Under the pieces are notes generated by a model. It did no database searches. It saw only the letters and a program-made list of their open reading frames with translations, and was not told where the DNA came from. The position numbers were made by a program, and so were the translations under genes. DNA of 64,000 bases from Apostichopus japonicus (taxonomy: Eukaryota > Echinodermata > Holothuroidea > Aspidochirotida > Stichopodidae), in the NCBI RefSeq assembly GCF_037975245.1, contig NC_092572.1, positions 20,152,489-20,216,488 on the forward strand. The letters are read 5' to 3'. Positions 17,207 through 43,096 of this stretch are shown piece by piece (within the stretch, counting starts at the first letter, position 1; each line of letters starts with the position of its first letter).

Positions 17207-20200
17207 TCAAGTCTCGGCCTCGCCCGCGGCCTCATCCTCCTCCCCATCTCCATCTCCACTGACCATCTGATACTCGGCAACGTAGAGCTTCTTGTCCACG
17301 TACGCCTTGCTGGGGAAGGGCTTAATCTCTGTTTTGAGTTCTTTCTCAATGTTGTACAAATTGAACCGGTCGTCGTATGTCACCAAGTTGATTGCGATAC
17401 CGAGGTGGCCGAACCGTCCGGATCTACCGATTCTGTGCAGGTAGGTTTCCGCATTTCGGGGGAAGTCAAAATTGATGACGACGTTCACTGCTTGTATGTC
17501 AATACCTCTGGTAAATAGGTCTGCAAAACAAGAAACAGAAAACATGAAGATAGAACTAAAAGATGAAAAATATTTCATTAACTGCAGCTATATGTCCTGT
17601 TTCTTGTTGATTCTTATTCTAAATCAAATAAAAACAGAAAGGTGAATCCTGTCAAAGTCCAATTTTAGTTGATGGAGGGCAAGAGACTTTATCGGTATCA
17701 CACCCTGGGCACTGCTCAGTTCTCTTTGGTCGGCAAGAGGTGTTAGAGGGGAGGGGGTAGAATCAATGTTGCCAGAGAGCCATGCCATAAATTTCCAATG
17801 CTGTAATAAATTTCCACCACTTCTTGAGGGCCCAAACAAAAAGAGAAAACCAAAGATTGTGGAGTAGACTTTATATAAATATATATGCTACTGTACAACT
17901 GATAATTACCTATTCCACAATTATTCTACTTCCATATAGATCACACAATTAAGAATGACCTACATTGTTCTGTCACAGCCGTTTCCACTGTGCAAAAGCA
18001 TTGAAAGGCTTAGGCACAAGGATATTGAACTGTATTTAATATCTGCTCTTTCTGACACTCCACAACCATAGTTTAAAGCAGTGATGTAACACAAGAGCAA
18101 CACATGGGTCATGAAAGGGCAAGACCCATACCACAAATATCTTACCCCCTTGCACACGAGCATGGATTTACAGAACCTACGCCAACTTTATTAAGCAATA
18201 GTTGTGGCAAACTTTCAAACTATCTCCCTATCAAAAGATCTCTATGACATATACCTAGCAAGACAATCCCGTGGGGGGGGGGGGGGGCAGGCAGATCATC
18301 AAAGAAACCTTTACGGAATATTTCAACAAAAAGAGACTGACCTGTGCAGACCAGATTCCTGCAGGCTCCATTTCTGAAGTCGTGGAAAACTCTATTACGG
18401 TGTTCCTGTCCCATCCTTGAGTGAATGTAGAAGCAACCATACCCCAGTTTGGTAATGGTCCTGGCTAAAAGCTCTACACGTTGGGTTGAGTTGCAAAAGA
18501 TAATGGACTGGTTGATTTGTAGCTGAAGGGTTACAACAAAATAAAAGATTTTTCATGATGCAACAATCACATCTGCCAACATAAATAGTGTTCTTTTACA
18601 CTTGCCATTTTGACATAGTTTGAACTTTTAATCATTCTGGAGGGGGTGGGGGGGAGGGATGATCTTTTTCCCTGCCAGTGGGCATGTGAATGTTGCTCTT
18701 TGGTATGTGGCCAGGTCATGTGACGGCCAACCCTTTGAGAAACTTTGTTAACCGCCTTCAGAATATCCCGACTGACAGGTACACAGCATTGGTTATTATG
18801 TTTTAGTGCCTTTCTGTTCTTGTTCATTTGGCTGCATTGATATGGTGAAAACATTTGGTACGGATATCAAACTCCACTCATCTGTGCAAACCCAGTTTGG
18901 ACATCACCACTACTGTGTCCGGTGCCTCTGTATCTCTCCAAAGAAGCACCCAGTTACATCTAACAGTTGCTGCAGAACTCTTCTAAAATCCCTTTCCAAG
19001 CACTGCCACAACCTTTAGGCTTTCTTGCTAAGTTTGCAATGGAGCCCCAAGAGTACACATCGATGCTGGGATATCACTACTAACTTCAATTGGATACTTT
19101 ACCTTGGAGAATAGAGTGTTGAGGCAGCGAACTTTCTGTTTCTCTTCCACAAAAGCATAGTATTGTGTGATACCTTTCAGGGTAAGTTCTTCCATTAGAT
19201 TGATCTCGTGTGGCTTGTTCAGGTATCTTTGCTGCAATGAGAGACAACCAACAGTCAATGCAAAATCACATCCAGATGAGTTACATAAAAACATATGAAA
19301 TGCCCAACACACCTTTTCACATCGGCACGGCAATTTTACAGTGCCTCCCAGGAGTTCTACGAATTAGAACTACTTTGTTCAATTTCAAACATCTCTTTTT
19401 AGAAATCTTCCCCAGTTGAAGCTTAAGAGAGTGCTTCCATGACATTCTATCTACCAGATGCTTCTTCAATATAGCATAAACCACAAAGCAAATTGGAAAG
19501 TTCCAAACTGTAGAATTGTACTTTACATTTGAAATGAAACTATTCATCAGCTGTGATCTACATCGTTCAGGACTTAAGTATTGATAACCCATCAAGAAAT
19601 GGCACATATTCAACTAAAACATATCTTTAAGGGGGTGGGAGGGGTTGAACATATCTTTTAGGGGGGGGTTGGATGCTAAAATGCAAGGAATATAAAGGTC
19701 ATTGTAGAAATAAAATGGGGTCCACCTTTAACACTCTTGATGTCCTTCAAACATATATGTGTATCAAATTGTTTAACACTGTCACAGCCGTTTCCACTGT
19801 GCAAAGGCATTGAAAGGCTTAGGCACAAGGATATTGAACTGTATTTAATATCTGCTCTTTCTGACACTCCACTACCATAGTTTAAAGCAGTGATGTAACA
19901 CAAGAGCAACTAACGGGTCAGAATATGGCAAGACCCACACCACAAATATCTTACCCCTTGCACAGCACAAACTATGCTGTACTCCCCCCACTGGGCACCA
20001 CCTTGCATTGCCTTGATATAATTTTCCTGGTCTGGTGGAGGCACTGCACATCTTTTCACATATCAGACAAGCCCACAAAACGATGTCACTGGCTGACAAA
20101 GGTGGGGTATCTGCTCCACATATCTTTTCTTACACTCTTGTTTGAAAGTAAAACGAGGTGGTGATCTAACCCTACATAAACTGACATTTTCTTCTTTTGG

Positions 20201-23200
20201 TTTCTCAATGGCACTACGTCCAAAAAATTGACAAAGATTTACAGGGGGTAGAAGATTGTCACTGATGAGAGCACAACCTGTGGACAACCACACACATTCC
20301 TCCTCCTCCTCACACATCAAAACTGATATTCCAGTGTCTTCCCACCTCAGCAAGAAGACTGTGAACTTGTACAATGGTAATTTAAACTTCCTTCAAAGAC
20401 TCACCTTGAAAGACTTTACACAGATTGGGAAGGTTGCTGAAAAGAGCATGACTTGACGATCCTGCGGCAGAAGTTGGATTAAGTCGTCCAAAAGACCCTT
20501 GAAGTCTTGTGAGAGTAATTTGTCCGCCTGAAGTGAAAAGTTGCAAAAGTTAAAAACTTCACTACTTTAAATTGACAACTGAAAAACAATCCACTTATAC
20601 TCCCCAATTTCCTATCTTACAACTGATAATTACCTATTCAACGATAATTCTAGTTCCATATAGATCACACAATTAAGAATGACCTACAACGTTCTGTCAC
20701 AGCCGTTTCCACTGCGCAAAAGCATTGAAAGGCTTAGGCACAAGGATATTGAACTGTATTTAATATCTGCTCTTTCTGACACTCCACTACCACATAGTTT
20801 AAAGCAGTGATGTAACACAAGAGCAACTAATGGGTCAGAATAGGGCAAGTCCCATACCACAATATCTTACCCCTTGCACACGGGATTTCACAAGGGAGTT
20901 TTGTGGGAAACAATGTAGTATGGGGTCTACAGTAGGTAGTGTTAATTCCACTCTCATACGCTGTGTTTATATCTTCTGCATGAGAGAATGAGCAGTCCCT
21001 GAGGTGGGTTCTTACTTCGGTCTCTAAAAGTGCTCACCTCCAGCCTCTATGACTGGTCATTTTTGGTGAAACAAAAAAATGGTTCCAGGGAATTAGGATC
21101 TAATTTTCATATTGGTTATGTACTAATGGAGAATGAGGTTTGGGGAAGGCAAAAATTAGTTGCTTGCACTTACTTCATCTAATACCAACATTCCACATTT
21201 GTCCATTCTGGCAATATCTTTACTGATCAGGTCCAGAGCTCGTCCAGGCGTCGAGACCAAGATTTGAACTGCGATAACAAAATGGTAAATAAAGGTAGAG
21301 TAGTGAAAGATGTGAATTTACCATGCTCTGTATTGTACTAAACACTGTGAACATCCAGGCTACAGCAAACAAGTGTGTTGATATGGAGGTAAATTAATCT
21401 GAGCCACAATGCAATTTAATTCAACTCTTAAGAATTAGAAAATGTTGCTGATGTATTATTTCAAGGAAAATGCTTGTGGGAATTTGATTTTAGCCATTAC
21501 ATTTCACATGGCGCACTGGCAGAAATTATGAAATTCTGGGGCAGTAATGTGTCGATTCTTTCCACTGCACAACGATATTAAATGATCAGAGGTACAAGGA
21601 TATGAAAGGAGTTTACTGTTTTGCTCTGTCTGACGCTTCTAGGCTAACCATGATGTAGCAGAGAAGTAACACTACTGAGCATTATATTGTCACATCATTT
21701 ATTAAACACTGAAGTGGCAGGGTTGAAAAATCTTCCAATTTTAGCCCTTGAGACAGCTTGGGTTCTATGGAACATGGCAACTGGACTGGAAATTGTCATG
21801 GCAAGTATGAGTGCTGTCACAATGCCACTTAAATACAAAAGTTCACAACAATAGAGACCATCAAGAATTTATGTACTATCTCTGGCTTAGAATACCACAT
21901 CTTTGGCCATTTGCTCAAGATGAAAGTGCTTCAAAAACTCTTCTTGCTAAAATCAAGTTCACTCATCCACACATTATGTACCGTATTGATTTTGATGATT
22001 ATGTTCTTAATGCATACCTGCAAAAAAATGCAAAGTGCCTTTCTTTCTCCTACTGGCAAATTGCAAATCCACCTGCATTTTGGGTAGTAAATGGCCTGAT
22101 TTCAAGGCATGTATCTACAGTTGAAATGTTTTAACTAATGACGTACAGTTGAAATGTTTTATACTAATGACAAGTAATTTATCTACTTTTTGAGCTAGGT
22201 CAATTTGAGTGCATTTGTAGAATGGAGACAGGATAAGACGACAAATTCCTAACGCAACAGCAACATACAGAAGAAACGAGTGTTTCCCCAATAACAAGTT
22301 ATTGTCATACATAAGTGTGACGAGACTGACCTTTGCACAGCTACATTGTTTACTTATATCTTATCATGTGCATCTGGTACACAGTATCTTTGCACCTTTC
22401 AAAACAAACATGAACCCAAACACTTGTGTCACCAACTAACTTTATCCAAACTTGATGTAGTTCTTACCTGTTTTGTCGAGTCTCATAATGTCATCTCGCA
22501 GGCTGGTGCCACCGGTGGTCACCATAACGCTGTGCCCTGTATGCTTTGCAATTTGTTTACAAATATGACTTGTCTGTAGGGCAAGTTCCCTCGTTGGCAC
22601 AAGTATCAATGCTATGGAGTAAAATGAAGCAAAAATCATAAGTAACACTGAACTCATTGAACCTCAGTAGAAGAGTTTCTTACAACATATATGTGAGTAG
22701 GTATTGCATAGATTACACCAGAGAAAAGGACCAGGGCAAAATTGTATTGGTTGTCTGAGTCAACCATCTTGCTCTTTGGAAAACCAAACCATAACGCCAG
22801 CAGGCTTAGTGATCCCTTTCCTTATTATTATAAGTTTATGCTGTACATGGAATCACTTGATTAATAGAGCTACTGAGGAAAATGTGATCTCAAATGACCT
22901 TTGACCAATACCAATAACAGTCAAAAACCAGTTCTACCTAGGGGGAACCTACATACCAAATATGAACATACCCCAGTTGTCCTTCTGAAATTAGAGCATT
23001 GCCAAACGTTTCACAAACACACAGACGCAACCACCTCGCATACACTCCTACTGGTTATCTACGAAGCGCTGGTATTGGTACCTGACAAGCACGCAACAGC
23101 TATTTATCAAATCTCAAACGATCTACTAATCAGGGATGAGCCTGGGGTAAAAAAAAAAATCACAGAACTTTGCAAAATTGCGGTATAGGTTCAAGTTTGC

Positions 23201-24863
23201 GTATGCTACAGTGTGTTAGGATAATTGTTTTTGTCCCCGAGGTAGAAAAGAAATCACAGATATTCCGCGAATTCGCGGAAAAAGCTCATGGCTGACTATT
23301 TCAAGGCCTGCTACTCACCTTGTATTTCATCTTTTTCTGGCGAGACCCGTTCTATTACTGGTATGAGGAACGCCCCCGTCTTTCCTGTTCCGTTCTTTGC
23401 CCTGGCCATAATGTCCCTCCCGGCGAGGGCGACAGGGATGGACTCTTCCTGAATTGGCGATGGCTGCTCCCATCCCTTCTCAAAGATGCCCATCAAGAGG
23501 TTGCGAGACAAACAGTAATCTTCGAATTCGTTCCCTTTCGTTTTGGTTACATCCTGAATAACAACGACGACGTCACAATATGAAGGTATGTTGTCAGCCC
23601 TATCAAACATGGCCAAAGATTGAAAACAAAATCCAATCTAGGGCCCAGATTCAGGACCTTGCATTTACAAAGTACTGTCTGCACAAGTAGAAAGATTTGC
23701 ACAATGTTCAAATTTCCTAACCGGTACTTTTCATTTTTTATCGATCTTCAGACTGTCACACCAAACAGTTGAATTGGTCACTGTCACAAGCATTCAATTC
23801 CTTATAGTAAGCTTAGTTGTCTTGAATTTTGTCACCATATGTCAGTTCATTGACTGATATGAATTCACCTGATCTAGTATCAAAATGACAAACTTTAAAG
23901 CATAAAACTTACCAATTTGGGATTGACTTTTAAAGTAAAAAAAAAAAACATTCGCACATCTTACCGAGGTTCTTATTCTGTTGTCTTTAGGTGGGAGCTT
24001 TAGTTTGGACTTCCAGTTGGGATCTCTGTAAGAGAAAAGGAATTGAAATATCAACAGATGGTCTGGAGAGACACTCTGCTTTTCACTACTTTGTGGAAAG
24101 GTGTAATGTACCTCCTGCCAATGTTCTTTACTGTATTACTAAATTATTCCTTGCTTCATCCACATAGCCATTGAACTGAGATTTAGTAACTGCAAGTGAC
24201 TTACCCTGACACATTTGCAGTCAAGTATTATGGCGGGCAATATACAGAAGCCTTTCATGATTCATCCACATGTTTGCATTCAATCACCTATAATTTACTC
24301 TCAACCAAGGATCTTAATAAAACCATCCACTTACCCGGTAGTGTTTTCTGTTGTAAGAAAAACAACTCACACCCCTCATGAGCACCCACAAAGTACTCCA
24401 CACATCTCGATGCTCCTACCACCCCCCCTTCTTCTCACTACCCCTAGTACCCTTACACCTACAGGCATAAATCCGACTTAATGTTACTCCCAGTAAACAC
24501 CAACTTACATAGCTACAGTATCTACAAGATGCTGTAACTTACAAACTGTAGTTACACTATCATGCTACTGTACTATGAACCAAACACACACCCAGCCATC
24601 CCAAGTACTCTGTTACTCCTAAAGTCCTAGTTACTGTCCACTTACTCTGATATTACATCTTGATCGTTCACTGGTCTTGAATTGTTTCCATTTGTCGTCT
24701 CGCTTCGTGCCGAGGACACCCCTTGTGACCTTTGACCAGTCTGTCTTGTCTGACCTTCTCCGTCCGCCATGTTTCTTCCCCCTGCACTTCTGCTGGGGCT
24801 GTGGGCATTTGTCGCGTTAAATCTATTATTGAGTTGAGTTTGCTGTGGGGGAGCTGTTGCCAT
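17207..24863 (-). CDS. DDX6: ATP-dependent RNA helicase DDX6 / Me31B, nine coding exons
   Basis: Exons: 24863-24646, 24025-23965, 23553-23319, 22611-22468, 21268-21174, 20527-20405, 19231-19103, 18522-18342, 17520-17207; 1500 nt, 499 aa (human 483). DDX6 is the DEAD-box protein of P-bodies that promotes decapping and translational repression. Residues 1-72 form a variable, Gln/Ser/Asn-rich tail. Then come LKLPPKD near residue 82, the Q motif [10 protein letters not shown] (Gln128), motif I AKNGTGKT (145-152), PTREL (177-181), TPGR (226-229), DEAD (250-253), SAT (281-283), and motif [10 protein letters not shown] (424-431). The C-terminus is acidic ([16 protein letters not shown]), replacing the vertebrate tail. 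All key helicase residues are intact and all splice sites are GT-AG. Introns 4, 5, 6 and 8 each carry an H/ACA-like RNA. A non-coding first exon near 27.5 kb is likely. Confidence 0.96.
17968..18101 (-). ncRNA. H/ACA snoRNA-like RNA, DDX6 intron 8 (type 1)
   Basis: On the host-sense strand, hairpin 1 closes with TGCTCTT/AAGAGCA. Its pocket bases are GTGTTAC (left) and GTCAGA (right), and it has a CACT/AGTG upper stem. The hinge ATATTA fits the H box ANANNA. Hairpin 2 has a lower stem ACAG/CTGT, an upper stem CCTTGTGC/GCACAGTGG and an inner AAGC/GCTT. The unit ends in ACA (17973-17971) plus 3 nt. Directly upstream lies a third hairpin ATGGGTC/GACCCAT. Homology to the intron 5 copy continues through both flanks to about 17895-18157. 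These features are read by eye, not by a folding program. A snoRNA-derived retroposon is the alternative. Confidence 0.55.
19777..19910 (-). ncRNA. H/ACA snoRNA-like RNA, DDX6 intron 6 (type 1)
   Basis: Near-identical to the intron 8 unit across both hairpins, the ATATTA hinge and the terminal ACA (19782-19780). The upstream extra hairpin is GTGGGTC/GACCCGT: both arms changed relative to intron 8, and the outer pairs survive as G-U wobbles. Homology upstream extends to about 19974, but the downstream flank is unrelated to the other copies right after the ACA tail, which helps define the 3' end of the unit. Confidence 0.55.
20692..20827 (-). ncRNA. H/ACA snoRNA-like RNA, DDX6 intron 5 (type 1)
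   Basis: Third type 1 copy, with the same TGCTCTT/AAGAGCA base stem, hinge and terminal ACA (20697-20695). It carries a small insertion in the loop of hairpin 1 and a change in the hairpin 2 right strand (GCGCAGTGG). Both flanks match the intron 8 copy over about 263 bp (20619-20881), so the duplicated unit is larger than the RNA itself. Same sense orientation as the host. Confidence 0.52.
21545..21683 (-). ncRNA. H/ACA snoRNA-like RNA, DDX6 intron 4 (type 2)
   Basis: Type 2 member, nearly identical to the two FBL intron copies. Hairpin 1: TGCTC/GAGCA base, CTTCT/AGAAG and GCTA/TAGC upper stem. Hinge ACAGTA fits ANANNA. Hairpin 2: CCTTGTAC/GTGCAGTGG with inner GAT/ATC. It ends in ACA (21550-21548) plus 3 nt. 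Its downstream flank shares over 100 bp with the FBL intron 6 copy, including GGCTAAAATCAAA, so this copy and that one derive from a duplication that includes flanking DNA. Confidence 0.55.
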
Positions 24864-27487
24864 TGTCTCTCTCTATTATTATTTCAAACTTTCAAGGCAG
24901 TTTTGACAGCGTATGCAGCTATTGATAATACTGTTTTAAGTGATTAATAGTGTTCGAGAGCTTTTGTCCACTCAGCACTTCTTTTGAAATTCCTGCACAC
25001 AAATATGTGTGTTTGTATGCATTTACAACAGAACGACACGTCTCCACTTATAGAAGACTGTTCTTTTTTACACAAAACAAATATACAAATATATAGATAT
25101 AACTTTGCATAGAAAATCTGACTCCAAGGAATATAAATTAAGTTCTTTGGAAGAGTTTCAACGAAAAGGAAAATTTGATGACTTTTGACGAGCAAAAGTC
25201 AAGTATGAAAGTGGAGTTCAATTGAACGTAAAAAAAAACTGAAGAAAAATCAAATCCCTCCACCACGTGGACGGATGAATTGCACTGAATCTCCGTAACA
25301 AGGTTGGCAATATTTGTCGCAAGAGTTTGAGTTCAAAACTGTTTACGGCACCAGTTTAATTACCTACAGCGTAGGTAAGCACTCCTATGACTTAGACAAA
25401 ACTTAGGTTCTAGTTGTTGGTTGAAACGCTGGTTGAAGCACACCAAGTGTGTCGCAATCTCATTCTGGGAGTAGAAAACAAAGAGTAAACCAAGATGAAA
25501 TATGGCAAACAAACAGAGATTAGATAATTGTTACACATTGAACGAAGATAAAGCATTTTGCATAGAAACATTAAAGTGGTTGAGTCATATACAAATTACA
25601 AAGGGATATACGTGTTTTACAAATATTTCAGTTTTATTCCTGCAAGGGACAAAAACAAAGTCATTGCAAATCCCTGTCAGTTTGGACTAGTACTGATAGT
25701 GGACTTTTTTTGGTAGTCGATTAATCACATTGTTTTTGATCGGTTACTGTAGGCTATTATTCAAAACCAGTTTATGTGTAGTGCTAATTTGTAGTCGAGT
25801 AATCGCAACTTAGGTCTTGAGCGTGATTAATCGAAATCCAAAATGTATTTGCAACTACTGACGATTAATCGATTACGACTATCAGCACTACTTTGGACTA
25901 GCAAGTTTTGGTAAACTACTGTTTTTTTTTTTAAATTTGTACAAGAAACAAACAAAGAACAAGTTGTTTGGAAATAACGAGTTGTTTGTGAACTATCCCT
26001 CCAATATGCCTATAATTCTCATCAAAATTGCTCTCTGTTGCAATGTTGATGAGTTTACTGATTGGATCCTGTGTATCTTCAGCAATGGTAACTACACTAC
26101 ATACATAGCATATATAGTCCAATGCTTACACTCCACTACATAATCTTATTCTGGAGTAAATTACAGTGCATTATTTTTTACATTTGTTTGATTTTAGTAG
26201 TATGATTTGGTTCTATGTTGGTAACAAATTTCTGCAAACATTTTGGTCTCACATTTACATTTTTTTTAACATGTAGTCTAGTGCAGGGATGGTCACAAAG
26301 TGGCCACATTTGGATTTGGACAGATGATGCACTCGTCCTTTAAACCTGGGTTTACAGTGTTAACTGTGCTCTTAAAGATATCAAGCAACATTTTGGTATA
26401 TAATCTACGATAAATATTTACTTTACCTGCGTTATACTGATAATGTGTAACTTTACACAGTACCAATATATCTACAAACAAAACTCAACTCATAACTGCT
26501 TGATTTTTAATATGCAAAGTTTAATTATTCTTTGGTTATTTCTTAAAATGTGGTGAAATATGGGGTGGTTCATAAAAAGATGAATATGAGGCATGCATCT
26601 GAATTCAATTGTTTGTTTAGGTTATGCTAGTTTTTCGTACATAGCTTACCAATAGGCCTAGTTTTCCTTACAAGTTACAAGCAAATGTGCAAAAATTTTG
26701 CAGTTGCAGGGGTTCACCAACTACAGTTAGACCTAGTTCTTTAACGAATACAAACGTCATAACTAATGACCACCATTGTTTTTTTCTCCATGCCATCATG
26801 ACATATGGCTTCCAATGCCTTCGATGAAAGCCATTGTTGAACTGAAGAATACTTATAAACATAATAACATCATTTGTTATCAAGGGCAATCCAAAATGGA
26901 ACCAAGAAATCTAGCAATTGGGACATCCTACTTAATCTTCATCTGGACTGTTACTTTCATCAAACATTGTATTTCATTTTGTCAAAGCATTACAAGTGTA
27001 CTAGGCCTTCTTGCAGGAGTTGACTGAAATAATTACTATAACGCGACCAAAAACAATTTGAATAAGCCTCAGCCTCTTTAGTTAGGCCTAGCAGAGCAGA
27101 CTAAGTAGTAGCAACTTAAGCCCGATAAATTGTCTAACATTACAAAAGTACAGGCAATTAAAACACCAATCTATAAAGAAAATTTTTTCCTAATGGCTCA
27201 ACTCCACCAAAGTAAATAAACTCTGTAAGATTTTGGCTAAGCGACGTGTCTGTTTGGGGTTGCAATAAATACTTTTCACATTGAGTGCGGCTTAGAATAT
27301 CTAAGCTTTTGGGCAACCTACAAAGAACCGTTCTGATTTAAAGTCTCTATGAAGTGCTTATAATAGACGCATCTTCACATATTATGTACCAAAAAGTATC
27401 AAGAAGAATATATAGTTGAAGCTTTATTGACAATATCTTTTTCACTTAAAGGATGAAAGAGATATTTGAAGATGGTTAGTTACTTAC
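24864..27487 (-). other. Probable DDX6 5' UTR intron and leader
   Basis: No coding region is supported here. If the candidate first exon near 27.5 kb belongs to DDX6, most of this stretch is one intron of about 2.6 kb. The acceptor is uncertain: ATAATAG at about 24873 lies just upstream of the start codon but has a poor pyrimidine tract. It contains the 203-bp MITE at 25688-25890. Confidence 0.4.
25688..25890. mobile_element. hAT-type MITE, 203 bp
   Basis: Inverted ends TAGTACTGATAGT and (reverse complement of the right end) TAGTGCTGATAGT are flanked by 8-bp duplications GTTTGGAC (25680-25687) and CTTTGGAC (25891-25898), one mismatch. Eight-bp target duplications are the hAT hallmark. Inside are repeated CGATTAATC-like words, typical of subterminal transposase sites. 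No transposase is encoded. It lies in the likely 5' UTR intron of DDX6. Confidence 0.75.
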
Positions 27488-27960: not shown

Positions 27961-30900
27961 ATGGTAGATGCAGCAACCAAGAAGACCTTGAGTGGTATTC
28001 CCCTCCTAAAGACCAAAGCGGGACCCCGAGACAAAGATTTGTGGCCGACAAGACTGAAAGAAGAATATTTATCGCTTATCAAAGTAATTTAAAAGTTTTA
28101 TTTGGTTAGTTTCATATTCGAACCGTAGTGTGATTGACGTTTTTGAACGTGATTGAGATAGGTCTAAGTAGGGGTGAGCCTAGTATCTATTAATTTATAG
28201 TTTTTATAGTATTAGTAATTTATAGTATTTACGGCCCAATGTAGGAATAAAATAGGCTAGTAATAAGAACTATATTATGTAAGCCTAAAAGGATATATAC
28301 TAAACAGGTCCTACATTATAATCAGGTAGATCTCGGTGACGTCCACAGGCTTGTAAGTAATTGTATTTACAGTCGGCTCTTTTTCCTATCACTTCACAGC
28401 AAAGAATGGCAGTATGTCATTCATGTAGGGAGAAGGCAGATGGGGGGGGGGGGGACTTGAAAGATGCTTGTCTTAGTTTACACATGGATGGGTGACCAAA
28501 TTAATTGACTATCTAGGATATTTAAAGGCAATACTGAAGTGTGAACATAACTGGCCAATCCTTGTCTTACTAAAATGTTTCGTAATAACACTTATTCTCT
28601 TTAAAGAACCATACAAATATTTTATATAAGAATTTCCAATGGTAGTTAGGGATAGGCCTATATACTTTTGTTTTCCCAATTGGATTTTTTTTTGGGGGGG
28701 GGGGGTATGGGTAGATTTAACTTATTACGTGGGAGTAAACCTTCAAAGAATCACCAACTGATGCATTTCAATGTCATGAGTCCTTTCACATCTCTCTTTT
28801 AGTACGTTGAAAACAACAAAGCTGCGGACAATGATTGGTTTAGACTAGAATCCAGTAAAGATGGCACCAGGTGGTTTGGAAAATGCTGGCATATACAAGA
28901 CCTACTCAAATATGAATTTGAAATTGAGTTTGATGTAAGTAAATTCTCATAGAATTACTGTGTATCCTCCAAGTTCCTGCTTCTGACATACAGCAGTTTG
29001 CGTGGCCTGGCACCCGAATGTATATATTTTCAGTCTTATTTCTTCCGTCTACACACCTCATCACAATCTATGCTCCTCAAAGTCTAGTAATTATCTGGTT
29101 CATCCTACAAGCAATTCTCTCTTTGGGGAGTAACTCATTCTTTGCATTGTCTGCTCGAAATCTTTGGAAACTCTTTAGAACTGCAACTTCAGTAGACTTC
29201 TTTAAAGGAAGGTTAAAGACACAGTCTCCTTCAAAGCTTTGCTTTGATCTGTATTGAACAGAAGGCATGCATGCCATTTGGATTTACTTTGTGCAGCACC
29301 TTGAGCAGATGACTGTTTCTGGATGTAGTGGTGCTTTCTATAAATTTTGTATATTATTATATTATTTTTTATTACATAACAATAGTGGACAGCATAACAT
29401 GGGTTCAATTTATATAGTAAAACACATATGCGCAATAGCCGTTAAAGGGTTGGCTCGATATTGTGCGCATGTACAAACCCACCCACATGGAATTTCAGAA
29501 TAATTTATTTTGTGTAGCTTTGTTTTTGAGTGTATGATATTTGTCCTATAACTATTAAATATATTTTTTTAATAAACTAACTGTGTCCAATCACAGCTGT
29601 ACATCTTTGCCTATATGAACAGCAATTCATCCATTGGTAAGCAATTCACTTTAGCAGATTAGTGAGCATCGGGATCATGTTACTGAAATGAAGGTAACTT
29701 ATAAGTTAATCCTTTCAATTATGAAAGAATTCAACTGTATAGTGGATCAGAAGAACTGATCATTTAAAAAAAAAATGTACAATGAAACCTTTTCCATCAG
29801 GAAGTAAGGTTTACATTTTTAAGTTTCAAGGATGTGGTAAACAAAAAACACCCAGACTGTTAAATTCAGTATTTCACCACTTCAGGAAAGTGGCATCGTG
29901 TGTTAATTTTAACCTTGTAAAATTTAAAAATAAAAGCAAGAGGGCAGTGTGCTGTAACCAATAGTCACTGAACTTGACTTCCCAATTTTCTGGAATGATC
30001 AGTTTAGTTTAAGAAAAAGATCATCAGATTTATGGAAAGTTTAAAATTGCAAATTATTGTGGTGTGTGTTACAGTAGCAAACTTTACAACATCATGAACT
30101 GTAGTACAGCAACAACCAAAGGCTTCCTAAACTTCAGGTGTACCGAGTTGAATAGAGTCAATTGACCCATTATTAAAGTCCAGGAGTGTCTCATGGCTAC
30201 ATTGTGTATGGAACACAGGGATTCCATCACACATTGTGTGTGTAACTTAATTACTGCACACTGTATGGAACACAGGGAGTCCATCACACATAGTGTCAGT
30301 AACTTTAATTACTGCACACTGTATGACACAGGGAGTCCATCACACATAGTGTCAGTAACTTAAAAATAACTGTACACTGTATGGAACACAGGGATTCCAT
30401 CACACATAGAGTCAGTAACTTAAATAACTGTACACTGTATGGAACACAGGGATTCCATCACACATAGTGTGTGTAACTTTAATTACTGTACACTGTATGG
30501 AACACAGGGATTCCATCACACATAGTTTAAACATAATTTACATCCGGGTGTATTTTTGCTTTCTTCTTTTCAGATTCCTGTGACTTATCCAGCAACTTCA
30601 CCTGAGATAGCCCTTCCAGAATTAGATGGGAAAACTGCTAAAATGTATCGAGGAGGCAAAATCTGCCTCACAGATCACTTCAAGCCTCTCTGGGCCAAAA
30701 ATGTTCCTAAATTTGGAATTGGTCACGCGATGGCACTCGGGGTAAGGAGCATCAGATTGTGATGTGAATTTTGTTTTGCTGGTTTTTCCAGTTCAGTTAC
30801 ACAAATACACCCATGTGCATTAAAGAGGGCTGATTTTAAAAATGTTAGTCCGGGATGAACGTAATTTTTGTCTTTTTAACTCATGAAAAGAGGAACATAT

Positions 30901-32409
30901 TCTCAGCATCCTGGTGAAATTTCCAGTTCAGTTCTACATTGCATTTTTGAGACATTGATAGTTGAAAAAGTCACATTTTGTACCACAGCTGAAGCAAACT
31001 GGTGTGATGTCATAAGTTCCGCACCGTCAACAAAATGTTTTTTTTGTTCTTCTTCCTTATTTTTCAATTTAATATTGTTTTCCCCTTGGAATGTGTGAGT
31101 TCCAACTGTAATGCAAGGGGATGTGAAATGCACTATGTCCCTATGACGGTAACTTGTATTCATATTGACATGTATTATCCCACTCTGAGAAGTAGAAAAT
31201 TGTATGCAAAATTCAATTGAATTTTCCAATGTGTATCAGTGAAATACCCTTTGGCTACAAGTTCTACTCTTGGTGCAAAGATGCGTTTAACATCGAAGGT
31301 TTATCGACTGGGAATAATTTAAGATCCCTCTTCTGTGTATCAGTTTTGAAGGCTCTGAAGTATTGAAGTTTCTTGTGTGCAAATACTGGTGTTTATTGAA
31401 TGTTATTGACTGGAATAATTGAAGGTCCCGCTTCTGTGTATCAGTTTTGAAGGCCCTGAAGTTTCAAAGTTTCTTGTGTGCAAATACTGTTGTACATCTC
31501 TGCAATTTTATATAGTAGTCTACCCATTATGCATAATGTGTGATGACCAAAACAGGATAAATTGTTCCCTGTTTGAGTGCTGGATTCTAAAAGAAATTTT
31601 CTATGATGATCAGGTACTACTGGGATGGGTGTCATTCTGGTTAATTCTTTAAGATTAAATCATGACTTTAGGCAGAAGATTTGGTTTGATATGTTTGTTG
31701 TCGACTTATTCAAACTCACTGCTATCAGTCTTGGTTGGATTTTCATCATGCTTTTTATTTTTGGAGAAATGACCCTCTACACAAGTGAGGATTAACAGTT
31801 AAAGTGACTGGTCTATTCAGTCTAATATACAGACTGATAGATCAGTTCCTCAGGTGCTACATGAAACTCAATGAAAAGACAAATTGATGTCCTCAAATGA
31901 CATGTTTACAATACGTTAAAAATTTGTAGAGGACAAATGGTGTTGATTGTCATCTTAGGGTGCTCTGTTGTTTAGTTAGGAAGTTAGAAGACCATGTTTG
32001 AGTTTGGACTTTTTATTTATTGGAATTTGTAAAACAATGTATAATAATTAGCATTTAGGCCAGCACTGAGGAGACCACATCATCATGTCTGCAGGCTAAA
32101 AGGAGCAATCCAGAATTTTAGCTTGAGAACCTTAATAGCTATAGAACCTTAACTAGGAATCAAAGTTGTCTACTTTCACATACCAAGATTAACATTTCTG
32201 CTTAAAGGCACCCTTTAAGATATTTTTGTGAAACCAGTAACAGCATCTTATTTCCATAAATGTTTGTGTCGTTTTCATAAAATTATTGAAAATCGATCTC
32301 ATTTTTTCCTCTCTTCCAGCTCGGACCTTGGTTAGCCGTTGAAATTCCAGATCTCATCAGCAAAGGACTGGTTAGGCACAAAGATGAGAAGGATGGTGAA
32401 GATAAATGA
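27961..32409 (+). CDS. UFC1: UFM1-conjugating enzyme 1, four coding exons
   Basis: Exons 27961-28083, 28803-28934, 30574-30741 and 32320-32409 encode 170 residues (human 167). All introns are phase 0 with GT-AG ends. UFC1 is the E2 that receives the ubiquitin-like modifier UFM1 from UBA5 and passes it, with UFL1, to targets such as ribosomal protein uL24 at the ER. The catalytic cysteine is Cys116 in [14 protein letters not shown], the same number as in human UFC1. Other conserved blocks are [16 protein letters not shown] (13-28), [18 protein letters not shown], and [15 protein letters not shown]. The C-terminus [10 protein letters not shown] is longer and more acidic than in vertebrates. The start ATGG has a good context. 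A polyadenylation signal AATAAA lies at 32857-32862. Intron 2 carries a 58-bp minisatellite. Confidence 0.97.
30199..30532. repeat. 58-bp minisatellite in UFC1 intron 2
   Basis: Six copies at a spacing of about 58 bp (anchor GGAACACAGGGA near 30209, 30267, 30325, 30383, 30441, 30499). Each unit contains a small palindrome (GGAA...TTCC) and a variable TAACTTTAATTACTG segment. The array ends 40 bp before the exon 3 acceptor. Confidence 0.85.
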
Positions 32410-33289
32410 CCCAATTTTTCTTAACCAGAAATAATGAGAAAGAGTCATGGTTTCCGGGGAATTCCCACAGAGTTTACAAAATTCTTGATAAAAAAAACAC
32501 GGTCAAAAACAGATAGCCTTGTTAGTTGGAGAAAAAATTCTACTGCATGAGATACACTGGCTATGTTACTGAATGGATGGTTTTGTACAGATCCAGTCTG
32601 AAGATGTCATTATTTATATTAAAGAAGGATCAGTAATTTTGAGACCTGCTACTTCCCTGTGAGTCTGGTCTACATAGATTTTGTATTCCTTGCCGGAGGC
32701 AAAAGGAATCTATGAGATGTTGATTGTGTGTGGGTGTATATGTATGTAGCATTCTCTTGTAAACATGGTAATTCAAAACACAACAAATTACACAGCATAT
32801 CAACGTATGAAATATACAGAAATGTTCCAAAGACTTACATTTATAATTTTAAAGTTAATAAAGTGGATTTCACAAATTTGAAATTGGTAAAAATGTCAAC
32901 AATTAACATGGGATCATGAAATTAATTTTTTATTAACAACTCACTCTTCTCAGCATTTGATAATGTTTAACATTATTATTTGGCTGACAGATTTGACATA
33001 GGACAAATAGTATAGTAACTACTCACATATCTCTATATTCGTGTCTCGAGTGCCGACGACACCAGAAGTTCAATTTTTAGTATTAATAGAAATAAGTCCA
33101 TGATTCCAACCGTATTTGGTTTGCTTAAAATGTTACCAAGTGAGTAAAGCAAGGTGCTTGTTGTAACATAGATCTTGACTCAGCTTCAGTTGGGAAAGTC
33201 AAACTGGGGTTGAAGGTAGTGAGTATGGTGGTCACAAAATGGATTATGGTTATTAGTCATTTGACAGGGTGTAGAGTTACATAGCCTTA

Positions 33290-33328
<39 letters not shown>

Positions 33329-34836: not shown

Positions 34837-34850
34837 CACGTGTATAAATA
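34837..34850 (+). promoter_or_regulatory. FBL core promoter: E-box and TATA box
   Basis: CACGTG (34837-34842) directly abuts TATAAATA (34843-34850), 60 bp before the FBL start codon. CACGTG is the canonical MYC/MAX and USF site, and fibrillarin is an established MYC-responsive ribosome-biogenesis gene in vertebrates. The transcription start should fall around 34875. Confidence 0.6.
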
Positions 34851-34909
34851 GAGACTATTACTACACTGGTTTGTAACGGAGCAGAAATCGCAAAGAAATA
34901 GACGCAGCT

Positions 34910-37900
34910 ATGGTTAAACCTGGTAATTAATGATGTATTTCATTAAAGAGTAGTTCAATTTCTCCCAAATAACATTATATATATCATGTGTGTTTGTCGC
35001 AAAGTGAGTGAAATCGTGATAGTTAATTTCTAAGTTTTTGATATTTAACATGAGGCCTAAATTAGGACTAGCCTAGGCATTGGGCTACTGACAGTTACAC
35101 AGGCAAAGTATAGCCTAACTTAGGCTAGGCTAACTTAGAATGTTAGTGTTTCTATTGGTCTGTGCAACTTACGCCTAAGTCAGGGTTTGGTCTAAGCAGT
35201 GGGAAACTTGAAACATGAGCATTGATAATAATGGCTGATGCCAACCTCGTTTGTTGTTGGAGCTGGGAACTGTGTAAGGAGATGTAGGCCTATGGCAATA
35301 GTTTCCAATTACTAGTACTAGACTTATTGACTAAGTTAGGCTAGGCCTAATTTTAGGCTATATACAACTAGACAACAACAGGCCTAACCCAAATTAAAAA
35401 CTATGCTTGATGGGAGTACACATTGATAATGTGCTAATTTTGTAAAATGTCATAGATATTTTGTTGTGTATGAATAGAGCGTGACAATAAGGAACTTCCA
35501 CCGTAGGCCTAGGCAAAAGTCACAGAAATGTTGGTACAATTACAGAAGAAAGGGCCACATGAGAGATCTATCCTAGCAAATTGGTTGCCCATTCAATGGA
35601 ATATGTTATCAGAATCTATTCCTATCATCCAATAGACCTTGAGTTACCTCACTCTCCAATTCCTTACTTAAATTAATGAGTTTAATGGGGATTAACGCAA
35701 CTGAAGTGGTTGGCCACGTTGTCTGCAATTAGACCAAAATGTGTCCTTTTAGAGGCTCAACATTAGGCTTTTTCAAAATTTCATTTGCTGGTTCTTACAT
35801 GTTAAATAAAGATAGGCTGTAGGTGAGGGGCTGAGGGTGATTGACAAATGTTTGATCAAGCATTAAATTACTAGAGACACTACTGATGACCTTAAAAACT
35901 GAAAGCCCGAAGAACCCCAGAATCTCTTGGATAGCATCTGCTTTTGTTTGCATGATAAAGGTGAAAATGCACATTAGCTGTTTGTCAAATTCTTATCTTC
36001 TTCATAACCACTAAACTTCTCTTTCAAAACAGGACTCGGATTTGATGGTGGCGACAGAGGTCGTGGCAGGGGAGGTGGTGGCAGAGGTGGTGGTGGATTC
36101 CGTGGTAGAGGTAAGTAGAATCAGCTCATCTGAGAATATTTGTCAAGGCTGAGTCTGAAGATAGTATGTTGGTCATGTCTTGGTGGTACAATATCACTTG
36201 GTCGCCAGATGCCAAATGGTTTGGAGATTGGTTCTTTGGTATGTGTGAGGACTCTGTGTAACTCCTTCAATTTTATAATTTAATCTGTACCCCTTAAGCA
36301 AAATCAGGCCTCGACAAATATTTTCAAAAGAATTCGCCATTTGGCAACAGTGACTAAAAAGCTAATCGCCAAAATGCAATATTCAATAAATTTGCAAGAA
36401 ATCATGGCAGCAATAACAGCAAACTTGTCTCAAAACTCATTAAATTATACATTTTGCAAATTATGACCCATTGCATGTGGAAAATGCCTCAAGAATTAAT
36501 TTAGGTGTTTGGTCACCTTAAGTGTTTTGGTATTCTGACACCAAACATTATGCATGTGCAGATAGCGAACTATTTTCCACAGTTAATTCCCATTTCGATT
36601 GGTCATTGACAAAAATCAGTTAACAAGTTTGTAACTTGCTTCAAGTTCGCTAGTGTACTTCCTTAATCATTCCGTGTAATGTTTGTTGTAACAATAGTCT
36701 TGCTAGTGTTGGGGTTTGACTAGCCCATGAGTCACTCACAAAAATGTCAATTGTAGTGCATTTTGTATTCAGCCAGAGCTAAAATTCTACTCGCCAGGGG
36801 TGATTTGACGACTGTATCTGTAAAATGAAATACTATTGCAAGGAAAAAACGTGTTGTTGTTGATATTTGATAAATAATTTGTAAATGAAGACAAACGAAA
36901 AAATCCCATTTTTATCCATCAGGTGGAAGAGACAGTTTCAGCCCTCGTGGAAGGGACAGTTTCAGCCCTCGTGGAGGCAGAGGGGGCCGAGGTGGCTTTA
37001 GTCCTCGTGGAGGGAGAGGTGGCTTCAGCCCTAGAGGAAGAGGTGGATTTGGTGGAAGAGGTGGTAGAGGTGGATTTGGAGATAGAGGTGGTGGCCGTGG
37101 TGGTGGCAGAGGTAGAGGAGGTCGTGGTGGTCGTGGAGGACGAGGTGGCAGAGGTAAGTAACAACCCTGCACCCTATCCCATAACCACTGAGTTTCTGTA
37201 CATTAGCTTTTCTTCAAGTACCTAGTATGTTGTATAAAATTGAATCATTGCTCTGGTGGGTATCAAACTAACTTAGCAATAAATGGAAATCTTTTCAATT
37301 AACTACTGTTTGATTGTTTATAATATCTCAGTTTTTACTCAGCTAATTGGTTATAGTGGTATGTCTATCTGATATCTGTGTTAGTAGCCATACATTGACT
37401 TCATTCTCACTGTTCCTTTTACAGGTGGAGGTTTCAGAGGTGGAATCAAAGTTTATGTGGAGCCTCATCGTCTTTCAGGTAAGCAACTATAATTACCTCG
37501 CAAGAGAGGCTGGCATGGAACACAGCCCCTACCCCCATCCCCGCCCCCAACAGCCACTCGCTCCAAACTAAAGAATAGTAACAACCATTTGAAGTAATGC
37601 CTACATAGGGTCCAAGATCGTACATTTTTGATGAGCTCTGCTTGTCTAGTGTTACCTCCCCGCTCCAAACATGGGCTCTGAGGTGTCAAAACAAGCAGAA
37701 ATTAAACCCCAGTCATCTATCTAGCCAAGCAATTGAATGCCTGGATTGCTTGCTACAGATGATTTGCTGGGCACATTCAATATCATTTTGATGATGCATA
37801 ATCAAACCTGTCACTCTTCAGATTGCTTCCAGGCTCTCACATGTAAAAGCAGCTATTACTGAGGAAAAAAGGAAAAAAGGAACAAATTGTCTTTTATCAA

Positions 37901-40900
37901 TAAATACTAGTTTTATTGCAATGCATACATCAGGGACTAAATAACAATGCTAGTTAAATGCAGTTTTGAAGGGTCTTACTTTTGCCTCTTTTTTGTAAAA
38001 TATCAAGTTTCCTGTGTTCAAAACATCTGTACATCGTTGCTCCTGTATAGCCAATTTGAACATTTGCATTGCATTTTGTGATGCAGTACTGGATGAGTTA
38101 CTCACTACTGTACATACTGCTAAAGAAGTATGTGTAAAGTCGGGTTCATAAATGTCTTTATTGTCGTAGCAAGTTGCAATGTATAGCATTCTGTCTCCCT
38201 TCTTCAGGAGTGTTTATTGCCCGAGGCAAAGAAGATGCCCTTGTGACGCTGAATCTGGTCCCTGGCAATGAGGTTTATGGTGAAAAGAAGATAGCAGTAC
38301 AGGTAAGGGGCCCAAGTAACATTGATGAACAGACGGACCATCCGTCTGTCTGAGGTGATATTGTTGGAGGTGTTGGAAGGAAATTACCTTGGCACTAAGA
38401 GGAGTCATTGTTTAATAATTGATTATCATGAACAAATACGGTACACACTTAACATTGCATGTGGTAGCATATGTAGTGTGTGTGTGTGTAGACTTGGGTA
38501 CTTTTCATGGGAAATATTTTTCTTGTAATGTGGCTTGGTTTGAACATTGTGATTTACGCTCAGTGTATAATCAATGTTATGCATACAGTATGTTATAATA
38601 TATATAGTATGTTATTTGTCTGTTTGGTCCATAGATATCTGTCTAGTTTTCTTATAAATTTTGCTCTTTCTCTTCTGTCTTAAGATCAAAATATTAAGCT
38701 CATTCCAAAGGAAGAAAGAAAAGGAAATTTTTTCAAAAAATCATGGTTAGGTCCACACTTGTACTTGACTCGCATTTGTACTTGATTTGTACTTGACTTG
38801 TACTTGAAGATTTTATAGATGTGGTACGAAATTTCAATATCTTGAAGTTGATATGTCACATCTACATTATAGCTGTTCTTTGTGTTGGTCAATCTAAATG
38901 ATGTAATATTCCACACATATAATTGGTAATCCCTTATGCTATATCTGGCTGCCATCTTTAAGGTAAGCCTAATCTATGAGTTGTTAACCATTTAATGTCC
39001 AAAAGAAATTGGTGTAATGCACATTTTCTTGTAAGTTAGTGTCGATTCACTTGCAATCCTTTTGCCCACTTAAATCAGTTTCCGGTGGATTAAGGACTAC
39101 ACAGATTGTTTTCTTGTATCTGGTCATCCCCATGAGTATGCTATCACTGGCTGGTATGGCATATGAGTAAATGTATAATGATGGTAAAGTATTGAATAGT
39201 AATGATAATTAATAATAACTTGGGTCTTCTTTTTTGTCATTGGCAGGACGGTGAGAACAAGGTGGAGTACCGTGCCTGGAATCCTTTCCGTTCAAAGTTG
39301 GCGGCAGCCATCCTGGGCGGTATAGACAACATTCACATGAAGCCAGGTTCTAAAGTACTCTACCTGGGAGCAGCCTCGGGTACCACAGTATCACATGTTG
39401 CAGATATAGTCGGTCCGGTGAGTCCAGGAGTAATAATAATATTTGCTTTTAACAATGCGCTTTATACCAGCGATAGGTCTCAAAGCGCTTTACAGACGTT
39501 ATATTACCCCTGGTCAATGATAACCTGTCCCAGAGACAATCCCTCCAGTCGGCAGCGGTTATATACTGCGCCCAATGACAAGTTACCTCACAGGTACCCA
39601 TTTAACCCCTGGGTGGAGAGAGGCAATTGAGATAAAACATCTTGCCCAAGGACACAACGTAATGAACTAGGCAGGAATCGAACCAGCAATCCTTGGATCA
39701 CGAGGCCGACGCCTTAGCCAATTGGCCACCACGCTCTCGACTAGTCTTGCAGATAGCAATGTAGCAGAAAGTATGACATTGTAGGAAAAAGATGAGAATA
39801 ACTTAGAGAACAAGGGTGGAGAATATAAAACAAAACTTGATTTGCCTCTCAAATACTTGGAGAGAAGGTTTGTAAATTTTATGCATTAGTTCTGAGAAAA
39901 CTTCAGTGACTTGTCATTCGGGGAGTTAAATGTACTTTGCTTCTGTATCATCATATATGTGGGATGATAGAGGTTGGTAGGTTTGACAGAAAAGGTATTG
40001 ACGCTACTGCAAAACTTGTAAATTTGACCCTTTGTTAGTTCAAAGTGATAAGGGTTTCATAGACATAGACATTAGAATTTACTATTATGCTCTAGTAGTG
40101 TTACTTCTCTGCTACATCATGGTTAGCCTAGAAGCGTCAGACAGAGCAAAACAGTAAACTCCTTTCATATCCTTGTACCTCTGATCATTTAATATCGTTG
40201 TGCAGTGGAAAGAATCGACACATTACTGCCCAGAATTTCAGCCAGTGCATAAGAAATCTACTGGCTAAAATCAAATCCCCACTAACATTTTCCTTGAATT
40301 AATACAATAATACATATAAGGAGTATAACATTCATATTAGGACATAACCATGGTGATATTTTTTAGAAAATAAAATGAAACAAAAAGAATATTGTATAAA
40401 GCTGCATATGAATTTAATTTACAAATTATTAAATGTTTTTGAATGAACCATACGTTGCAAACTACATACTACTATGCAACCGGTATTGAAACGGTATCCA
40501 AAGGAGACAATTAAACCCTATAATGTTGGTTTTGTTTTCTCTCGTCGCCAGGAAGGACTTGTCTATGCAGTAGAATTCTCCCACAGATCAGGTCGTGACC
40601 TTATCAATGTAGCTAAGAAACGAACAAATATCATTCCCATCATAGAAGATGCCAGACATCCACACAAATACAGAATGTTAGTAGGTAAGTAGTGTCACTA
40701 TCACCACCTCTTTTATCATCTTGTTGCTCCATTTCATAAACATCTCGACATTTGGCAGACAAAAGGAACTTGTTGGTGTCAAGAAATGCATAGACAATGA
40801 AAACACTAGTTTCCATGTGATGTCAGGATTTCTTGTTTTCCTTCTTTGCTGAAACTCAGATTTGCTCAGTTTGTCGAGATCTTTCCATTTTCACCGTTCA

Positions 40901-43096
40901 CACCGTTTGTGATGTGTTGTTGTGTTGCCTGGTTGGGTTTTTGTATCTCTGCATAATAACAACAACTCAAGGTCTGTTTTTGTAACTTGACCAAATTGAC
41001 TATTATGCTCTAGTAGTGTTACTTCTCTGCTACATTATGGTTAGCTTAGAAGCGTCAGACAGAGCAAAACAGTAAACTCCTTTCATATCCTTGTACCTCT
41101 GATCATTTAATATCGTTGTGCAGTGGAAAGAATCGATACATTCATGCCCAGATTTGGATAAAGTGTACCCTTCGTGCATACCCGAGCTTGATGTCGGTAA
41201 GTGTGGGGTAAATGTGGTCAACTCTACTAAGGGTTTTGAATTGCAGCATGTTTTACAATTCTGGTAACTAGATATATCAAGCTGAAGTTTTCTCTAATTC
41301 TGACAGGTATGGTGGATACGATATTCGCAGACGTAGCTCAACCAGACCAGGCTAGAATAGTGGCCATCAATGCACACCATTTCCTTAAAAACCTCGGACA
41401 TTTTGTCATCTCTATAAAAGTAAGTAATAATCATGAGAGGATATGAAATGGGCAGGGTTGGAGCATCATTTTGTTGAAACAAAAGTGTCTTTTTTTGTGA
41501 GACTTCAAAGAGGTGGACGTAAGTTACTGGCAAGAAAGTGCCACTGCGTTAAACAAAAGATTGGAGTCTCTCTTTTTTTTGGTGATGAATGACAATATTT
41601 GACAGAAATGTACAGTCATTGGAGTAAATATGCAGCCAAAAAATGTTACCTGGACAGTTTCTGAGGTCAAGTCACAGAATGAGAGAAAGCTTGGAATGCA
41701 TAGAGCATCTGTCAGTGTAACAGAATCTATGTCAGGGTTTCTTGTTGTTTTTTCTTAGTGCGGGGGGAAATTTATCCGTTGTAGAGAAATACTAAAGTTA
41801 ATGTATCTGAAAATTTGAAGTAGCGAGATCCTCCATGCATCTTACAGTTCATTACAGACTGTAAGAGAATTTGTGCTAGTCAAAATTTACTGGCTCTCAA
41901 TACATAATTTATGCACTGGTTCATGTTTGGTTGTGGTTTTGTACATTGTAACAACACTGTGACATCACTGAAAAAAACACTGCAAGTTTCTTGAAGAGAA
42001 AAGGCAAATTGACATCAGGTTGATATTAGGCAAAGATTTGCCTGTCACAAATAAATTAGTTGTATCAATTATTTAATGCTCTTAATAAACATTAGTTTTC
42101 TTTTGTTTTTAGCTATCAGTAAATAACAATATTCTTTATTTTGTTTTGCCCCCATGCTAGGCCAACTGTATTGACTCAACAGCACAGCCAGAGGCAGTTT
42201 TTGCAGGTGAGGTGAAGAAACTCCGATCAGAGCAGCTGAAACCAGAGGAACAACTGACGTTAGAACCGTACGAAAGAGACCACGCAGTAGTAGTAGGCAC
42301 ATACAGGTTAGAAGGCTACCTAAATATCTTCTCTTCTTGATAGAAATGTTCATTAGCTCCAGACTTAGAGTTCAAGTACAACAGCATGAGTACAAGCACA
42401 AGTAGAATACCCCTTGGTATGAGTACAAGGCTGTATGTGAAAGTACAAATACTTAATCCCTTATTATTTGTCTATGTACTAAATTTTCAAAATGATTTTT
42501 TAGTACAAAGCCATGAGGTTGAGTACAATCAGAGGCAACTATGGTAGAATTTGAGTACACTTTGTACTTGCCACAAGTCTTGGATTTAAGTATTACTAAA
42601 CAGGCTGAATCCTTTATTTGTATTTTCTTAGAACTGGTTTGTCTTACGAGACGAGGGGGTGCATTTTTACATGGGCTTTGAATGACGGCTAGCCTATACT
42701 GATGTGAAAATGAAATTTTAATTCTTTTAATCGAAACCTTATGTTCTTCAAAAGTGTTGGTAGCATTTTCATCTCCGAACTGTTGATTTGCATGTAATCA
42801 TTACTTAGGATCAGACTGAGGTGTTTTGCGCAGAAGTTGGTCGTCCAGTGACATTTCTCGTGTTTACAAGGCACAGTCTGACTACCGTTTATTCGCCAAT
42901 CAAAATTTATCATCTTGTCAGCCGTAACAGGAGAGTCTTTGGTAGATTTCTAGGACCATCTGACAAGCCTGTAATTATTTATTCTGATGATCGAATTAAT
43001 CATGTGTATTTATTAATCCTCGATCAATAATGGCTTTTTCTCTCTGTCCCTCTTCACAGAGCACCAGCAAAGGGGAAAAAAGATGAAGACGAATAA
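34910..43096 (+). CDS. FBL: Fibrillarin, 2'-O-methyltransferase, ten coding exons
   Basis: Exons 34910-34922, 36033-36110, 36923-37153, 37425-37478, 38208-38302, 39247-39417, 40552-40684, 41307-41419, 42161-42306, 43060-43096; 356 aa. Fibrillarin is the catalytic subunit of box C/D snoRNPs in the nucleolus and also methylates histone H2A glutamine. Residues 5 to about 113 form the glycine-arginine-rich (GAR) domain, including repeated SFSPRG units in exon 3. The methyltransferase fold follows: [44 protein letters not shown], the SAM-binding GAASGTT (198-204), [34 protein letters not shown] and [16 protein letters not shown]. The tail is [12 protein letters not shown], unlike the vertebrate PPPKVKN. 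Exon 1 encodes only MVKP plus one base. Introns 6 and 7 host H/ACA-like RNAs; intron 6 also has a SINE 13 bp from its donor. Confidence 0.97.
36306..36830. repeat. Dispersed repeat in FBL intron 2
   Basis: Starts with CAGGCCTCGACAAATA and shares about 190 bp with 58468-58680, including CTTGCTTCAAGTT, TAGTCTTGCTA and AGCTAAAATTCTAC. The other copy ends TATTGTCGAGGTCTG, the reverse complement of this start, so the family probably has inverted ends of the hAT kind. The right boundary here is degraded and estimated. Confidence 0.5.
38758..38810 (+). repeat. TTGTACTTGA short repeats, FBL intron 5
   Basis: Four near-exact copies of TTGTACTTGA within about 50 bp. Reverse-complement units (TCAAGTACAA, GAGTACAAG) recur in FBL intron 9 at 42372-42580. 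Confidence 0.6.
39431..39740 (-). mobile_element. tRNA-derived SINE in FBL intron 6
   Basis: Read on the minus strand it opens with a tRNA-like head: an A-box-like TGGCCAATTGGC and an exact B box GGTTCGATTCC (39683-39673). The body contains the common SINE words CTTGGGCAAGATGTT and AAAGCGC, and the tail is ATTATTATTA. It begins 13 bp after the FBL intron 6 donor and is antisense to FBL. It is not a tRNA gene: there is no proper acceptor stem. Confidence 0.75.
40086..40225 (+). ncRNA. H/ACA snoRNA-like RNA, FBL intron 6 (type 2)
   Basis: Sense to FBL. Hairpin 1: TGCTCT/AGAGCA base, left pocket AGTGTTA, upper stem CTTCT/AGAAG with GCTA/TAGC, right pocket GTCAGA. Hinge ACAGTA fits ANANNA. Hairpin 2: CCTTGTAC/GTGCAGTGG with inner GAT/ATC, then AAGAATCG leading to ACA (40220-40222) and 3 nt. 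The lower stem of hairpin 2 is weak here; CTTTC/GAAAG offers an alternative pairing. It aligns without gaps to the type 1 units from the hinge through the ACA. Confidence 0.58.
41004..41143 (+). ncRNA. H/ACA snoRNA-like RNA, FBL intron 7 (type 2)
   Basis: Nearly identical to the intron 6 unit from TATTATGCTCTAG to the ACA box (41138-41140). Differences fall mainly in loops (CATCATGG to CATTATGG) and in one base before ACA. Flanks diverge soon after each end, so the conserved block coincides with the predicted RNA. Located 163 bp before the exon 8 acceptor. Confidence 0.58.
42372..42580 (+). repeat. AGTACAAG repeats, FBL intron 9
   Basis: Scattered units of GAGTACAAG and TCAAGTACAA, complementary to the intron 5 cluster at 38758-38810. 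Spacing is irregular. Confidence 0.45.

Follow-up and report, generated by a model that had tools for sequence, protein, structure and literature searches.

Box H/ACA snoRNAs are stable RNAs bound by dyskerin, NHP2, NOP10 and GAR1, and their guide pockets are expected about 14-16 nt before the H or the ACA box. The described RNAs that compare most closely with those analysed here are human SNORA13 (RF00396) and fly snopsi18S-1377 (RF00543), the fly Psi18S-1377 copies forming a letter series. One fly copy is named Psi18S-1377b in print (PMC13228274), a name from which several fly copies seem to exist. In PMC12975130, SNORA13 is described as the homologue of yeast snR35, with the first intron of the lncRNA gene EPB41L4A-AS1 as its host, and as the guide for pseudouridylation of 18S rRNA at position 1248, which is the first step toward m1acp3Psi adjoining the P site. 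That a single host can carry snoRNA copies in several of its introns, and that snoRNAs move among broadly expressed hosts, has also been described (PMC8178906 and PMC3511168).

Here we explore a window, the whole stretch of 64,000 nucleotides that was analysed, in which seven units, falling into three diverged types termed A, B and C, very probably encode intronic box H/ACA guide RNAs of the SNORA13/snR35 kind. Types A and C resemble SNORA13 over its full length and have in common with it the 5' arms GUGUU/GUCARA, the 18S site and an intronic position (PMC12975130). In contrast to the single lncRNA host of SNORA13, the seven copies here reside in two protein-coding hosts; their scores stay below the Rfam gathering level, their 3' hairpins differ, and type B is linked to SNORA13 only through A and C. 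Type A is also alike end to end to snopsi18S-1377, which matches A and C more weakly than SNORA13 does. Whereas human H/ACA copies are described as mostly found in different hosts via retrotransposition (PMC8178906 and PMC3511168), the copies here are clustered in two neighbouring genes.

The finding is ordinary in kind and well supported: the SNORA13/snR35 family gains seven or more new members, housed in a pair of neighbouring genes. Its interest lies in m1acp3Psi being among the most complex rRNA modifications, the probable guide for which is here located in an animal whose copies score under the Rfam gathering threshold and is found amplified within introns of two RNA-metabolism genes, in what is otherwise ordinary intronic snoRNA duplication. 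The SNORA13 model, to which type B is invisible, could be improved with these units. Among the titles and abstract openings of the listed matches in the SNORA13/snR35 and intronic snoRNA literature, these copies are undescribed.

Methods

Anatomy, homology, target pairing, position relative to host introns and copy number were computed for all units. For the covariation test a structure of 27 pairs was hand-drawn from unit A1 and applied to the seven units (188 cells). Flank homology was determined by strict-scoring alignment. The rDNA for the target scan was cut from contig C5; 3301 of its 8301 bases, comprising 18S and spacers, are readable and 5,000 read N. The readable bases showed no landmark of 28S or 5.8S. 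The U2 scan used locus U2b on the right strand and locus U2a on the wrong strand.

Units, hosts and flanks

The first host is a DEAD-box helicase gene of the cgh-1/DHH1/p54 type, DDX6, with coding exons, as far as mapped, at 17267-24863 on the minus strand; it was recognised by the exon map, a PDB match to cgh-1/p54/DDX6 for one exon and a Pfam DEAD match for another. The second is the fibrillarin gene FBL, with coding exons, as far as mapped, at 36889-42307 on the plus strand, recognised by open frames, the exon map and a PDB fibrillarin match (E 6.1e-29) for one exon. The original prediction called the two genes adjacent; since at least UFC1 sits between them, they are neighbours rather than adjacent.

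The six units that had been reported, in DDX6 introns 4, 5, 6 and 8 and in two FBL introns, are all present in the sequence, and the DDX6 intron numbers match our map, in which only coding exons are counted. The total of six does not stand, as a seventh unit, type C, which surfaced in the Rfam scan of the window, sits in an earlier FBL intron. The window thus contains three units of type A, three of type B and one of type C.

Type A lies on the minus strand, within DDX6. A1 (17968-18099, intron 8) has its guide arms at 18088-18092 and 18051-18056 and its H box at 18037-18042; A2 (19777-19908, intron 6) has arms at 19897-19901 and 19860-19865 and an H box at 19846-19851; A3 (20692-20825, intron 5) has arms at 20814-20818 and 20775-20780 and an H box at 20761-20766. 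B1, also on the minus strand (21545-21681, intron 4), has arms at 21668-21672 and 21629-21634 and an H box at 21614-21619. The remaining units lie on the plus strand in FBL: C at 37639-37778, in the intron preceding exon 38207-38302 (arms 37649-37653 and 37685-37690, H box 37699-37704); B2 at 40088-40225, in the intron at about 39418-40551 (arms 40098-40102 and 40136-40141, H box 40151-40156); and B3 at 41006-41143, in the intron at about 40685-41306 (arms 41016-41020 and 41054-41059, H box 41069-41074). Every unit lies in an intron and has the orientation of its host gene, with C, B2 and B3 in three separate FBL introns; the six A and B units measure 132-138 nt.

Identity inside types is 95-98%, against 59-61% between A and B, 63-64% between A and C and 53-55% between B and C, in a MAFFT alignment that misaligns part of the type B basal stem. 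The basal stem of B1 carries a one-base deletion relative to B2 and B3. A descriptor of GTGTT, GTCA, ANANNA and ACA at set distances returns exactly the seven units on both strands of the whole window; it was written after the units had been seen and is therefore no independent test.

Some copies share flanking sequence as well. A1 and A3 have about 73 nt in common upstream and 74 nt downstream, A1 and A2 57 nt upstream and 4 downstream, B1 and B2 5 nt upstream and 93 downstream, and B2 and B3 about 12 nt on each side. Most likely the copies arose by local duplication among the introns of the two neighbouring hosts; snoRNA copying between introns is known (PMC3511168 and PMC8178906). For B1 and B2 the RNA is identical at 137 of 137 positions plus one indel, and the aligned 3' flank at 73 of 81 plus 12 gap columns. 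The contrast is weaker for A1 and A3, the RNA agreeing at 130 of 132 positions plus 2 gap columns, the upstream flank at 62 of 65 plus 10 gap columns and the downstream flank at 68 of 74.

H/ACA anatomy and folding

The original reading of the units as intronic box H/ACA RNAs is supported by structure, boxes, spacing, covariation, host-sense position and a pocket with one clear 18S target. Each of the seven units has an ANANNA hinge and a terminal ACA plus 3 nt, the hinge reading AUAUUA in type A, ACAGUA in type B and AAAUUA in type C. The distance from H to ACA is 69 nt in the six A and B units. When folded with proper ends, all seven show two hairpins in the minimum free energy structure.

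Compared with shuffled sequences, A1-A3 (z -2.12, -2.29 and -2.85) and C (z -3.88) fold better, and B1-B3 show no clear excess stability (z -0.25, -0.55 and -1.14; with ends off by 1-6 nt, -0.14, -0.02 and +0.56). The 3' basal stem of type B is weak.

In the 27-pair structure 87.8% of the cells pair, and 8 of the 27 pairs are changed on both sides. When the structure was slid along the alignment, 25-48% of cells paired and 0-2 pairs had changes on both sides; the covariation score of 0.358 compares with 0.02-0.14 in the slid versions. None of 500 shuffles reached the observed percentage paired, number of both-side-changed cells or covariation score; 23 of 500 reached eight both-side-changed pairs. 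Further pair types give no support, as 500 of 500 shuffles reach the observed number. Taking the structure from A1 biases the percentage paired in its favour; stronger evidence comes from the paired changes between types, above all those at the four base pairs of the 3' apical stem.

A possible though doubtful alternative is that only some units, say A and C, work as guides, the type B units being duplicates that are decaying or have another role. Decay of some B copies may be suggested by their folding near the level of shuffles, the weak 3' basal stem, the deletion in B1 and the failure of the Rfam SNORA13 model to match any of the three. Against this, type B retains both 5' guide arms, the H box and the ACA, with pocket spacings of 15 and 14 nt, and in the 3' apical stem it differs from type A by, among others, paired changes. 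In addition, the identity of B1 and B2 in the RNA lies far above that in the 3' flank, which would fit constraint, and recent gene conversion could also explain it.

The 5' pocket and its 18S target

The 5' pocket is formed by a left arm GUGUU and a right arm GUCARA, the latter beginning 14-15 nt ahead of the H box in all seven units. Across the readable rDNA, all three types pair best at one and the same place, UUUGAC-U-C-AACAC in the 18S rRNA of the animal itself, in which the target base is U1254 when counted from an assumed 18S start. We take this base, by its sequence context, to be human U1248; as a second basis, the Rfam SNORA13 consensus carries the same arms as the units. Pairing scores at the site are 13.8 for A, 12.6 for B and 14.2 for C, with a runner-up of 7.8 for each. 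In 1000 trials with permuted arms the observed 18S score was reached 3 times for A, 21 times for B and twice for C. A target base common to three diverged types is stronger evidence than that of each type alone, although the types are homologous. In U2 and U5 no better pairing was found for the 5' pockets, the best scoring 7.3.

Transcription, processing, RNP assembly and modification can be predicted from this arrangement. Once released from the spliced DDX6 or FBL intron, each RNA would associate with dyskerin and its partner proteins and would take up 18S rRNA in its 5' pocket. With UUUGAC-U-C-AACAC held there, the U would be converted to pseudouridine, presumably beginning the formation of m1acp3Psi beside the ribosomal P site.

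Regarding the scanned RNAs, the matches listed in the genome include tandem U2 genes, often in 645-bp steps, on contig C16 (31015207-31155899), and tandem U5 genes, in steps of about 620 bp, on contig C11 (4443518-4465623). The rDNA array on contig C5 (75795-1294850) has steps often near 14 kb and copies on both strands, with frequent direction changes that may be an assembly error.

The 3' pocket of types A and B

In the 3' hairpin the arms AUAUCC (left) and UGGAAA (right) are identical in all six A and B units, although their 3' basal stems differ, and the pocket they form lies 14 nt before the ACA. Type C is without these arms. No convincing target for the 3' pocket was found in 18S (best 9.0, with 3+4 pairs), U2 or U5, in a scan confined to these three RNAs, 28S reading N. 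The conserved A/B 3' pocket provides a concrete candidate for a second target.

Tentatively, A and B might mainly serve via the 3' pocket, guiding a second site in 28S or in another RNA, and share the 18S role with C, a possibility compatible with the SNORA13/snR35 assignment. It is suggested by arms that stay unchanged, at constant distance from the ACA, next to differing basal stems; it is weakened by the poor pairing in 18S, U2 and U5 and by type C having no such arms. A more far-reaching and rather unlikely scenario would be that SNORA13 paralogues of three types, long diverged and multiplied within two genes of RNA metabolism, retained the pocket for the 18S P site while their 3' pockets split, A and B having a second target absent from C, and that the amount of m1acp3Psi guide depends on the expression of fibrillarin and DDX6.

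Family assignment

The RF00396 model matches type A end to end (model positions 1-134), with 45.9 bits (E 7e-6) for A1, 47.7 bits (E 2.7e-6) for A2 and 49.3 bits (E 1.2e-6) for A3. C is matched over the same model positions with 37.9 bits, corresponding to an E-value of 0.0019 in 19 kb and of 2.2e-5 in 221 nt. The snopsi18S-1377 model (RF00543) yields 30-31.7 bits for A1-A3 (E 0.005-0.013) and 18.9 bits for C; it also spans B2 end to end, yet with 14.3 bits and an E-value of 2.5. None of the three B units is matched by RF00396, the seed of which is largely vertebrate.

SNORA13 was found by E-value for A and C, and no Rfam family matched the window at gathering level, the best SNORA13 score of 49.3 bits comparing with a gathering score of 53, the curated cut-off for automatic naming. 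As the scores lie under this cut-off, the name SNORA13-type is given to the units for their target and homology, and the Rfam criterion itself is not its basis.

A model built from A and B alone recovers C with 41.2 bits (E 5.6e-8), the next best match scoring 18.8 bits. Type B is joined to the family by alignment, by the paired changes and by this recovery of C. The 18.8-bit match (42395-42523) was rejected as an extra unit, its letters being without the pocket; two further matches of the A and B model (17.3 and 15.9 bits), antisense to B2 and B3, were left out of account.

The units had been proposed to form an undescribed guide RNA family. This is not supported, because A and C match RF00396 and, more weakly, RF00543, and because the 5' pockets of all types fit the known SNORA13/snR35 site. 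An undescribed H/ACA family unrelated to SNORA13 would agree with the sub-gathering Rfam scores, but is very improbable given the end-to-end SNORA13 matches of A and C and the identity of pocket and target.

Copy number in the genome

DNA searches of the genome (671,581,487 bases) found three places for type A, three for type B and one for type C, all inside the window, in a search that skips very common words and a genome in which some stretches read N. As a control, the SINE from the FBL intron that holds B2 returned 1916 candidates, of which 40, from many contigs, were scored and listed. Hundreds of scattered copies had been named with the original prediction as part of what would speak against it, and in these searches they did not appear. 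The many dispersed copies expected of a SINE or a snoRNA-derived retroposon are thus missing from the search results. That the units are a SINE or other mobile repeat merely resembling H/ACA RNA is hardly credible, in spite of several near-identical copies, some with short common flanks (A1 and A2 downstream, B2 and B3), with 3 + 3 + 1 copies in 671.6 Mb against the 1916 control candidates and with every copy intronic and host-sense.

RNA-family searches of the genome were less sensitive. One returned the three type A units plus one hit at chance level and missed C, and another gave a single hit of 25.7 bits on contig C10 and missed A. Seven is therefore a lower bound, as diverged copies elsewhere could escape such searches. 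As the same families also produced matches under the cut-off in 7 of 14 control genomes, every one prokaryotic, scores of this kind are at chance level. A candidate at C3:21949560 (25.8 bits) was rejected; it scores 15 bits with model R1, and neither of its strands contains GTGTT with GTCA after it.

Repeats in the window

The control SINE is a tRNA-derived SINE-like repeat at 39450-39745 on the minus strand, within which 39668-39731 weakly matches the Rfam tRNA model (26.7 bits); the 39 other scored genome copies are 96-98% identical to it. The UFC1 region contains a tandem repeat array at 30192-30562 with a unit of about 58 bp. A pair of 82-bp direct copies, 90% identical and spaced 101 bp apart, lies at 31311-31493. 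Beyond FBL, at 44081-44603, two overlapping tandem arrays have units of 38-39 bp, the printed copies being GGATATATCC-like.
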